Shown: piece by piece, positions 50,506-54,650 of the stretch
How positions within the stretch are numbered: position 1 is the first letter of the stretch
Layout of the letters: the number at the start of each line of letters is the position of its first letter
Assembly: GCA_036496605.1 (NCBI GenBank)
Contig: DASXKV010000003.1
Span: 62,001-126,000, forward strand
DNA: 64,000 nucleotides
Direction: 5' to 3'
Source of the DNA: Gemmatimonadaceae bacterium
GTDB lineage: Bacteria > Gemmatimonadota > Gemmatimonadetes > Gemmatimonadales > Gemmatimonadaceae
Program-made: the position numbers and the translations under genes
Notes under the pieces: generated by a model
The model's database searches: none
Told to the model about the DNA's origin: nothing
The model's input: the letters and a program-made list of their open reading frames with translations, nothing else

Positions 50506-50529
50506 CGAAATGGCGTCCGCGACGTCTTG

Positions 50530-50943
50530 ATGGCTCGCTTTCAGTCGCCCGACCACTCCAAGGGAGACGCCAACACGCTGGGCGGATACATGGCCGTGCA
50601 CGATCGCCCGGCTGCATTCGAGGGTGGCGACGGATTCTCGTACAGCGCCGAGATCGTGACTGACGCCACGACTGATGCCACCGCGCCCTATGCGGCGTAT
50701 CTCCTCTTCGTGAAATGGGCGCGTATCGGTGCCCAGTCGCCCGAGGGGCATCTCGAGACCGATTATCTCGCGCGCTCGGCAACGGAAGACGAAGCACGCG
50801 CCGCCGTCGGTGCGTGGCAGCTCTCGGCGGTGAAGCGGGCGCTCGATGAGCTCATCGCAGGCAAAGGTGGTGACGGGAGTGCGTCGCAGCGCCGGTGGTG
50901 GGACGCGATGCGCGCCGAGGGTAGTGAGGAGGGCGCCGAGTGA
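50530..50943 (+). CDS. Conserved-looking hypothetical protein upstream of rsgA
   Basis: 137 residues from ATG 50530, no signal peptide or membrane helix. The sequence has A/D/E-rich helices and a possible globular core (YAAYLLFVKWARIGAQSPEGHLETDYLARSATEDEARAAVGAW). I recognise no family. Its stop overlaps the GTG of rsgA (GTGA), so it probably belongs to the same transcript. Confidence 0.6.
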   Translation: MARFQSPDHSKGDANTLGGYMAVHDRPAAFEGGDGFSYSAEIVTDATTDATAPYAAYLLFVKWARIGAQSPEGHLETDYLARSATEDEARAAVGAWQLSAVKRALDELIAGKGGDGSASQRRWWDAMRAEGSEEGAE

Positions 50944-51902: not shown

Positions 51903-52207
51903 TTGTCATCCCAGCGTTTTTTTTCGCGGGAGCATCCCAGACCTTGGCTGACCACTGGCGGCGCGACCCACAAAACGATTTTAACACCGACAAAGCCGAC
52001 AAATCGCGGGCACCGCCGGACAAACCAAAACAGCGTCTGCCATTTTGAAAAAGCCCTCAACGCTCTTTTGCAGTACCCGGCAGTGTTCGCACTTTGTCTG
52101 GCTTTGTCCGCGTTATCAGCCGTTGATAGTTGCATCGCCTGCGACAAGCGTTGGTCTGAGATGCCTGTGCCGGGCCGACATCCCGTCGCTTCACTCCGGA
52201 TGACAAT
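51902..52207. mobile_element. MITE-like foldback element with ATTGTCATCC terminal inverted repeats
   Basis: The 306 bp start with ATTGTCATCC (51902-51911) and end with GGATGACAAT (52198-52207), a perfect 10-bp inverted repeat. Inside, GACAAAGCCGACAAA (51989-52003) is answered by TTTGTCTGGCTTTGTC (52093-52108), and outer segments (GACC...GGCG..GC.AC...AACG) also pair. Thus nearly all of it folds back on itself. GC content is lower than its neighbours and no reading frame is convincing. It lies between the convergent rsgA and ACP-like genes. No transposase is encoded; mobility is inferred from structure. Confidence 0.65.
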
Positions 52208-52213
52208 CGCAAC

Positions 52214-52462
52214 TCATCGGAGATCTGCGAACCGCCACTCCTCGCGGTAGCGTGTGATCCCGAGCGTGCGCGCCATCAACTCGCCAATCACCGCCGAGAC
52301 GTGCTCGCGGTGGTCGTCGTCGTCCATTCCGTCCTGCGAGGGCGTCGCACCGGCGACGAAATCAATGACCGCGCCCGGCGTGTCGAGCTGCTCGGTGTCT
52401 TCAATCGAGACGCCGAATTCCTCCTCGACGCTCGCGAAGAATTCGTCGAGGGCCCAGCTCAT
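52214..52462 (-). CDS. Acyl-carrier-protein-like small protein, possibly circularly permuted
   Basis: 82 residues from ATG 52462, acidic. Residues 2-40 match the C-terminal half of ACP: helix II (LDEFFASVEEEFGVSIED) then helix III/IV (LDTPGAVIDFV). If ACP is aligned, Ser2 falls at the phosphopantetheine Ser, with the preceding Asp replaced by Met. After an acidic linker (SQDGMDDDD) residues 53-82 (VSAVIGELMARTLGI...EEWRFADLR) look like ACP helix I and the loop up to DLG. So the order of halves seems swapped. It may also simply be a distinct small protein. Confidence 0.5.
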   Translation of the reverse strand: MSWALDEFFASVEEEFGVSIEDTEQLDTPGAVIDFVAGATPSQDGMDDDDHREHVSAVIGELMARTLGITRYREEWRFADLR

Positions 52463-52667
52463 GGCAGGCACTCGTCAGGCAGTACGCCTCCGCGCGTTAC
52501 GAGGAGAGGAATCACGGACGCGGTTGAATATAACCCTGCCATGCCGCTCACCCCGACGCTCGGGAAGCGCCGGCGCAGGTGGTCGTTTGTCACAATTCAC
52601 TCGACGCAACAAAGCGTTCTTCGCGCTGTCTCGTCAAGCCGCGCGAAAGGCCTATATTCCAGCCGAG

Positions 52668-53429
52668 ATGAGCACGAGACGGAAGCGCGGGAAGGCACAA
52701 ACCAACCTCGGCGAGGTCGCGACCGATGAAGCGATCGACGCGCCGCATGGCTCCCGACCGGACCAGGTGTATGCGCGGTTACGCGAGCTGATCGTCGGAG
52801 GCCTTCTCGCCCCCGGCAATCGCATCGTCGAGACCGAGATTGCGACTCGGCTCGGCGTCAGCCGCACGCCCGTCCGCGAGGCGCTGCAGCGACTGCTGCA
52901 GGAAGGCTATGTGATCGACACGCTCGGTCAGCAACAATCGCGTCTCACCGTTGCTCCGCTCACGCGCGACGACGTCCACGAGTTGCTCACGGTCGTCGGT
53001 GCATTGGAAGGCATCGCGGCACATCATGCGGCCTCGCTCAGCACCGACGCGCGTTCAGTGCTGAGCAAAGCGCTGCGCGACGCGAACGCGGAGTTTCATC
53101 GTGCCGGCCGCGCCTCGCCGATCGATCATGAAGCATTGTACGATGCCGACGACACCTTCCATCGGCGCATCGTGGAGTCGGCGGCCGGGCCGCGGCTGCT
53201 CGGCTTGTACGAAGCCGTCAAGCCGCAGGCCGAACGCTACATCCGGATGTACATCAGCATGCTCACGGGCGACATCCGCAGCTCCGTCGCGGAGCATGAC
53301 ACGATCATTGCCGCGATCGGTGACGGGCGTAGCGACGACGCCGAACATGCCGTCGAGACGAATTGGCGGCACGCCGCCGATCGTTTGAGCCGCGTCATCG
53401 AGCTGGCGGGAGAGCGCGGGGCCTGGTGA
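52668..53429 (+). CDS. GntR-family transcriptional regulator, FadR/FCD subfamily
   Basis: 253 residues from ATG 52668. A basic tail precedes the winged helix (RPDQVYARLRELIVGGLLAPGNRIVETEIATRLGVSRTPVREALQRLLQEGYV, residues ~30-85). The FCD effector domain follows, with helices containing the metal/ligand His positions (DADDTFHRRIVES, EHDTIIAAIGDG). It binds an acid metabolite and controls unknown target genes. The following dinB gene begins 3 bp after its stop, a tight link that suggests a shared transcript. Confidence 0.9.
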   Translation: MSTRRKRGKAQTNLGEVATDEAIDAPHGSRPDQVYARLRELIVGGLLAPGNRIVETEIATRLGVSRTPVREALQRLLQEGYVIDTLGQQQSRLTVAPLTRDDVHELLTVVGALEGIAAHHAASLSTDARSVLSKALRDANAEFHRAGRASPIDHEALYDADDTFHRRIVESAAGPRLLGLYEAVKPQAERYIRMYISMLTGDIRSSVAEHDTIIAAIGDGRSDDAEHAVETNWRHAADRLSRVIELAGERGAW

Positions 53430-53432
53430 GCG

Positions 53433-54650
53433 ATGGAGCCGCCGCGGCGCATTCTCCTCGCCGACGCCGACGCATTTTTCGTCGCGGTCGCTCGGCTTGT
53501 CGATCCTGACGGTGCGGGTCGTGAGCCTTTGCTCATCGTCGGCGGAACGCGGGAAAGCCGCGGCGTCGTTTGCTCCGCCTCGTACGAAACGCGCAAATAC
53601 GGCGTCCGCTCGGCGATGCCGATCTCACGCGCCCTCCGGCTCTGCCCCAATGCGGTGTGCGTGCCCGTGCCGCGAAAGGCCTGCTCGGAGAAGCACAAGG
53701 AGATTCGCGGTGTCCTCGAGCGCCACGCGCCGGCCGTCGAGGGCGCGAGCATCGACGAGTGGTATCTCGACCTCGGTGGGACGGAGGCGCTGTACCGTAA
53801 CGAGGCGCTCGCCGACACGGCCGCGCGCATTCGCCGCGACGTCGTCGGCGAGACGGGAATTTCCGTTTCGTTCGGCGGCGGCACATCGAAGCTCATCGCG
53901 AAGCTTGCCGTCGAACACGCGAAGCCGCGCCCTGGAAACTCGGCGACCGGCGTCCACGTGGTGCCGGCAGGAAAAGAACACGAGTTCATGCACGTCATCG
54001 CCCTCGCCGAGATTCCACTGATCGGTCCGCGATTCCAGGATCGCCTCGCGCGGCTGGGAATGCGCACCGTACCGGACGTGCTGCAATACGACGAGGCGAC
54101 GCTCGCGCAGTGGTTAGGCAAGCGCGAAGCGGCGTGGCTCTGCGCCCGCGTACGAGGCATCGACGGTACACACGTCGAAACGGATCTCGACGCGAAGAGC
54201 ATCAGCCGCGACGAGACCTTCTCGGCCGACATCGACGACGACGCGGAGCTCCAGCACGAGCTACTCGCGTTGCTCACGCGCGCCGCGGCTGATCTCCGTG
54301 CCGACGGGATGGCCGCGCGAACGATTCGCGTGAAGATCCGCGACTGGGATTTCCGGACTCGTCAGGCAAGTCGGACCATCGATCGGCCCGTGATTGCCGA
54401 CCGCGTCATGTTGAACGTCGCAACGAGTTTGTTGCGCAAGCTGCGCGCGGCGCGCCGCGTGCCCGCTCGTCTCCTCGGTGTGGCGCTGTCGTCGCTCGCG
54501 GTCGACGCGAGCGCCGATCAGCTCAACCTGTTCGACGCGATTGACAGCCGGATCGTCGAGACGGAGCGCGATCGGAAGGTCGCGCGCGTCGTCGATCGAG
54601 TTCGATCACGGTTTGGGGATAAGGGGATTTTGCCGGGTGGGCTCGTCTGA
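53433..54650 (+). CDS. dinB: DNA polymerase IV (Y-family, DinB)
   Basis: 405 residues. The palm motifs hold the catalytic acids: DADAFFVAV (with the Phe steric gate next to it) and GASIDEWYLDL. The HhH segment follows (IPLIGPRFQDRLARLGMRTVPDV), then the little-finger domain. The C-terminus has QLNLF, a canonical beta-clamp binding motif. The W in SIDEW replaces the usual A of SIDEAYLD. It allows bypass synthesis of damaged templates. I found no LexA box in its upstream region. Confidence 0.94.
   Translation: MEPPRRILLADADAFFVAVARLVDPDGAGREPLLIVGGTRESRGVVCSASYETRKYGVRSAMPISRALRLCPNAVCVPVPRKACSEKHKEIRGVLERHAPAVEGASIDEWYLDLGGTEALYRNEALADTAARIRRDVVGETGISVSFGGGTSKLIAKLAVEHAKPRPGNSATGVHVVPAGKEHEFMHVIALAEIPLIGPRFQDRLARLGMRTVPDVLQYDEATLAQWLGKREAAWLCARVRGIDGTHVETDLDAKSISRDETFSADIDDDAELQHELLALLTRAAADLRADGMAARTIRVKIRDWDFRTRQASRTIDRPVIADRVMLNVATSLLRKLRAARRVPARLLGVALSSLAVDASADQLNLFDAIDSRIVETERDRKVARVVDRVRSRFGDKGILPGGLV

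Follow-up and report, generated by a model that had tools for sequence, protein, structure and literature searches.

Few small folds have been studied as much as that of acyl carrier protein (ACP), whose helices are taken to come in a fixed order. The protein described here shares several features with AcpP (PF00550; TIGR00517, NF002150), namely the helix II-III-IV sequence S..E..V.EEEFGV.I......L.TPG.VIDFV, the hydrophobic pattern of helix I with its L-G-[IV], the F-x-x-D-L loop, the size and the acidity. It differs from AcpP in that the halves are swapped, the break falls at 35/36, and Asp35, Leu37 and Asp38 are changed. The colicin E immunity proteins share an ACP-like fold in SCOP and are four-helix proteins that bind protein and carry no group, but their helices are in the native order. 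Swaposins are natural circular permutants for which the usual explanation is a duplication followed by loss of the outer halves; this is the same kind of rearrangement as in the permuted ACP, in other folds. Tandem ACP units joined head to tail are found in polyunsaturated fatty acid synthases, according to one report (PMC3585217), and such head-to-tail units are the expected intermediate of a permutation, although in these synthases they are complete units in native order. The sequence-only reading of this locus had supposed that a permuted carrier protein would be new, and titles and abstracts, in a search where subscription papers fall mostly outside the coverage, describe no carrier protein with a natural circular permutation.

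The window, a stretch of 64,000 nucleotides from a Gemmatimonadaceae bacterium, contains a gene whose minus-strand product (52462-52214) is MSWALDEFFASVEEEFGVSIEDTEQLDTPGAVIDFVAGATPSQDGMDDDDHREHVSAVIGELMARTLGITRYREEWRFADLR. The features of the locus are given in Table 1. The protein is small and acidic, with 20 acidic residues, 6 basic residues and no lysine. A GTG nine bases upstream, at 52471, is a possible alternative start, but MSWAL begins the conserved sequence in every homologue, reading VSWAL with a GTG start in one. The ratio dN/dS among the family members compared is approximately 0.05-0.5, mostly 0.1-0.3, and substitutions among homologues fall mainly at third codon positions. With dN well below dS and changes concentrated at third positions, this is therefore a translated gene under selection. 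A chance open reading frame, or one called on the wrong strand, has only the short length of the gene in its favour, and for practical purposes it is ruled out by the nine homologues, the third-position changes, the low dN, the conserved start and the synteny.

Table 1. Features of the permuted ACP locus, in positions of the window.
Feature	Position	Strand	Basis
Permuted ACP-like gene, 82 aa (MSWALDEFF...RFADLR)	52214..52462	-	ORF and nine homologues with purifying selection
Segment 1, residues 2-40, matching ACP Ser36 to the end of helix IV	52343..52459	-	Profile matches and AF2 helices
Acidic linker, residues 41-52, old C-terminus to old N-terminus	52307..52342	-	Sequence; gap region in the tandem-ACP alignment
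Segment 2, residues 53-82, matching ACP helix I, L15-G16 and the F28-x-x-D31-L32 motif	52217..52306	-	Alignments and AF2 helix 48-67
Intergenic region common to the permuted ACP gene and the divergent gntR	52463..52667	.	Synteny
Regulator of the GntR/FCD family, transcribed divergently from the permuted ACP gene	52668..53429	+	Pfam GntR 2.9e-16, FCD 6.2e-14
DNA polymerase IV (dinB)	53433..54650	+	Named from reading of the sequence, without a family scan

Homologues are present in nine Gemmatimonadaceae genomes, comprising 3/3 of the window's genus and 6/6 of a second genus, and none was found outside these two genera among the 179 Gemmatimonadaceae genomes searched. A further weak match among the 179 genomes (L025) was rejected, since it lies in an unrelated reading frame and arose by chance. 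Three close relatives were returned by a search of genome contigs, all from Gemmatimonadota metagenome-assembled genomes, while the plasmid and viral contigs searched contained no relative. The many weak matches across the phylum were also set aside, as those that were read proved to be ordinary ACPs matched mainly through the first half. The profile statistics that follow rest on little diversity, since the family consists of only nine sequences that are 60-88% identical to the window protein.

The first half of the protein is, on the evidence of its sequence, clearly ACP-like. Compared with all PDB sequences, the family profile finds nothing but ACPs among its 60 best matches, some of them from complex I and mitoribosomes, and ranks the ACP 2ehs first (E=2.5e-6, residues 6-42). 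The window protein by itself matches the ACP 2n50 by phmmer (E=0.006), and hhalign of the first half against an ACP profile gives P of about 3.5e-8. The matched positions are E41, L42, V43, L46, E47-F50, I54, I62, T64, I69, D70, Y71 and I72 in E. coli AcpP numbering, which also applies to those of the second half, and the acidic helix II residues at positions 41, 47, 48 and 49 are mostly retained. The positions matched in this half and in the second are those that build the ACP core. Family cut-offs are not reached: the best NCBIfam score is 18.2 bits, against the 66 required by NF002150, and Pfam gives no PF00550 match and nothing else relevant.

The second half is weaker, scoring only about 2-7 bits alone against single ACPs, yet it lies in register with ACP residues 3-33, the match to helix I and the F-x-x-D-L motif covering residues 55-81 of the protein. 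The matched positions are I3, V7, I10, I11, L15, G16, V17, F28, D31 and L32, and helix I also carries a conserved stretch specific to the family, MARTLG-[IV]-TRY. Aligned by hhalign to the N-terminal half of ACP, the second half scores 15.9-16.1, compared with 8.0-8.3 +/- 1.9 for column shuffles. Shuffles scored as high in 1/400 and 2/1200 trials, and in 0/1200 over at least 28 columns. Windows taken from 12 neighbouring protein families reached this score in 0/249 cases, the best being 15.7 over 17 columns. The helix I half therefore exceeds its nulls, with p of about 0.002.

The two halves occur in the order II-III-IV-I, not the native I-II-III-IV of ACP. Each of 23 Gemmatimonadota ACPs is matched twice by the family profile, and among the matches listed the N-terminal part of the ACP pairs with profile positions of approximately 58-84, and its C-terminal part with positions 7-42; the PDB entries 2ehs and 2lol are also matched by both halves in swapped order. 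Against a profile of two ACPs placed head to tail, hhalign returns a single alignment of 70 columns that runs from position 42 to position 113 and spans the junction. The full-length score against this tandem profile is 53.0, compared with 44.5 for one half, and the maximum from 400 trials in which the second half was shuffled is 51.0. Because the real alignment exceeds the shuffled maximum, and the second half exceeds its own nulls, the swapped order is more than chance. These results bear out the sequence-only reading, which had likened residues 2-40 to ACP from the serine to the end of helix IV and residues 53-82 to helix I up to the DL motif, in the order of a circular permutation. That reading had named homologues aligning to one half only as the contrary outcome, and the opposite was found, with both halves aligned.

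For the converse comparison we used an alignment of ordinary ACPs only, cut at Ser36 and with the ends rejoined; it had rows for E. coli and B. subtilis and 19 more from fetched loci. This model spans 6/9 family members in one piece, from position 6 (9 in one of them) to position 76, with scores of up to 28.9 bits. An ACP model in native order splits into two pieces in the wrong order, and its best domain scores 20.7 bits against 28.9 for the same protein. In the three proteins of the window's genus, including that of the window, the model cut at Ser36 reaches only residue 52-59, near the beginning of helix I, and the case that these three are permuted therefore rests on homology to the other six.

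The break itself can be located from the ends of the proteins. Members of the second genus end in F-[VIF]-[QE]-D-L-[HR]-V-R followed by the stop codon, and at the other end S-W follows the start codon. Compared with F-V-E-D-L-G-A-D / S-L-D in ACP, residues 28-35 are found in the tail and position 36 opens the head, so that the cut separates Asp from Ser within the attachment motif. The start codon is followed by Ser-Trp in 9/9 sequences, so that Ser2 is invariant, while Leu37 is replaced by Trp and Asp38 by Ala in all nine. Position 35 is the start Met, or Arg at the tail in the second genus, and Asp35 could not have stayed at the head because its codon is now the start codon. The Asp-Ser-Leu motif is thus incomplete, with the Ser kept and the Asp and Leu lost. 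Attachment of phosphopantetheine to Ser2 is doubtful on these residues, and the reservation about modification that had been raised earlier was justified, given a serine in 9/9 sequences and positions 35 and 38 that are not Asp.

In the window the rsgA gene lies beyond the 3' end of the permuted ACP gene. The gap between the two genes is approximately 310 bases in the window (51903-52213) and only about 40 bases in the genomes of its two congeners (L054, L053). The additional sequence contains TTGTCATCCGGAGTGAAGCGACGGGATG, which resembles an interspersed repeat and has a single copy within the window. This element follows immediately on the stop codon, and its presence may have made the C-terminus shorter.

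The AF2 model of the window protein, built from eight sequences, has a pLDDT of 89 and a pTM of 0.79, with helices predicted at residues 3-16, 29-39 and 48-67. Setting S2 to 36 makes these equivalent to ACP 37-50, ACP 65-75 and a helix I that ends at L15. One relative was also modelled with no alignment as input, which makes for a weaker check; its pLDDT is 75 and it shows helices II, III, IV and I, the one in the position of III being short and additional to those of the window protein. Structure prediction had been put forward as a check on the permutation, and for the window protein helices II, IV and I are predicted where a permuted ACP needs them. Foldseek, which compares structures in sequential order, found no significant match to the AF2 models in the PDB or BFVD; a permuted fold is expected to give this result, which is nonetheless no evidence for one, as a different fold would give it too.

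In both genera the permuted ACP gene is found near a GntR/FCD regulator, rsgA and dinB. The order is rsgA, gntR (reversed), permuted ACP and dinB in the second genus, and rsgA, permuted ACP (reversed), gntR and dinB in the window's genus. As the two orders differ, the gntR and permuted ACP pair appears to have been inverted as a unit with the divergent region kept. In one genome of the family (G001, L053 9374-15710) approximately 6 kb separates the permuted ACP gene from gntR, while the two are divergent neighbours in the other eight. No fatty-acid or polyketide synthase genes were found among the syntenic neighbours. The window's genome also encodes an ordinary AcpP, four other PP-binding open reading frames, an AcpS-type gene and a second gene of the phosphopantetheinyl transferase (PPTase) family, and the permuted protein is therefore an addition to the ordinary ACP and not a replacement for it.

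Judged from sequence comparisons, the protein is probably a natural circular permutant of ACP. The main competing explanation is that there has been no permutation, and that the C-terminal half of an ACP has been fused to an unrelated helix. Most of the score does come from the first half, the second half contributes 2-7 bits, and Foldseek found no ACP. However, the second half is in one register, ending at the ACP D-L, in every comparison, with p of about 0.002 against shuffles and 0/249 real windows as high; the helix I hydrophobics I3, V7, I10, I11, L15 and V17 are matched together with G16, F28, D31 and L32, and the two ends of the protein adjoin precisely at ACP 35/36. We therefore consider a fusion of this kind unlikely. 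The same order of sequence would also be compatible with a domain-swapped or oligomeric form, in which the bundle of each chain is completed by helix I from its partner in a dimer, but a linker of approximately 12-15 residues seems sufficient for a single chain to close on itself, and the AF2 monomer is confident, making an exchange between chains very unlikely.

A permutant might still be a working carrier, in which Ser2, N-terminal after Met removal, takes 4'-phosphopantetheine from the genome's AcpS or Sfp-type enzyme, and the cargo is an acyl or aminoacyl group. This would fit with the invariance of Ser2, the mostly kept acidic positions of helix II and the two PPTase-family genes in the genome. 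It fits poorly with Met or Arg at position 35, with the replacement of Leu37 by Trp and Asp38 by Ala, and with syntenic neighbours that lack fatty-acid or polyketide synthase genes, while the conservation of Ser2 could also be due to a helix cap or to a preference in Met removal. A carrier function is, in our estimation, quite unlikely. The best explanation, and a likely one, is a natural ACP permutant that would form a closed ACP-like bundle and act as an acidic, protein-binding adaptor, no longer as a carrier.

The probable route to such a protein would be from an ancestral ACP through a head-to-tail duplication and then loss of the outer halves. The new chain would start at the old Ser36, continue through helices II-III-IV, the acidic linker, helix I and the F-x-x-D-L loop, and stop at about old residue 35. 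The predicted fold would be a closed helical bundle like that of ACP, but not an ordinary 4'-phosphopantetheine carrier, and Ser2, which would be N-terminal once Met is removed, could cap helix II. A role in binding proteins is favoured because Asp35, Leu37 and Asp38 are lost, lipid and polyketide synthase genes are not found nearby and MARTLG-[IV]-TRY is conserved. If the permutation is true, it would show that the functional loop of ACP can be opened into two free ends without loss of the fold, and the protein would offer an experimental system for whether PPTases need an intact loop, as well as a new attachment geometry for carrier-protein engineering. It would also be a non-carrier relative of ACP with a new partner to seek.

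The divergent GntR/FCD regulator probably controls expression of the gene. In 6/6 genomes of the second genus the stop codon of the permuted ACP gene overlaps the start of dinB; the shared bases number four (ATGA/GTGA) in five of these genomes and one in the remaining genome. The permuted ACP and DNA polymerase IV would thus be made together in that one genus, and polymerase IV is the first candidate partner. The suggested link is positional, coming from a co-directional, overlapping gene pair in one genus only. It would be a long shot to propose that the permuted ACP is a dedicated partner or regulator of polymerase IV under GntR/FCD control, tying ACP-type proteins to mutagenic repair. A literature search on ACP together with dinB, judged by title and abstract, yielded nothing relevant, and upstream of dinB in other genera we found no canonical or remnant ACP. 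In one further genus (g2; L097, L098, L100) the place that the permuted ACP gene has in the second genus is taken by another gene, whose product apparently starts with a twin-arginine-like sequence and whose stop codon overlaps the dinB start at GTGA. A conserved open reading frame of 138 aa (50527-50943) lies between proline dehydrogenase and rsgA; it gives no Pfam match and is syntenic in both genera. In the second genus (g15; L047-L052) a promoter-like sequence, GTTGCtcg followed after approximately 15 bases by ACATTG or ACATTC, recurs, as judged by eye, about 50 bases before the start of the permuted ACP gene.
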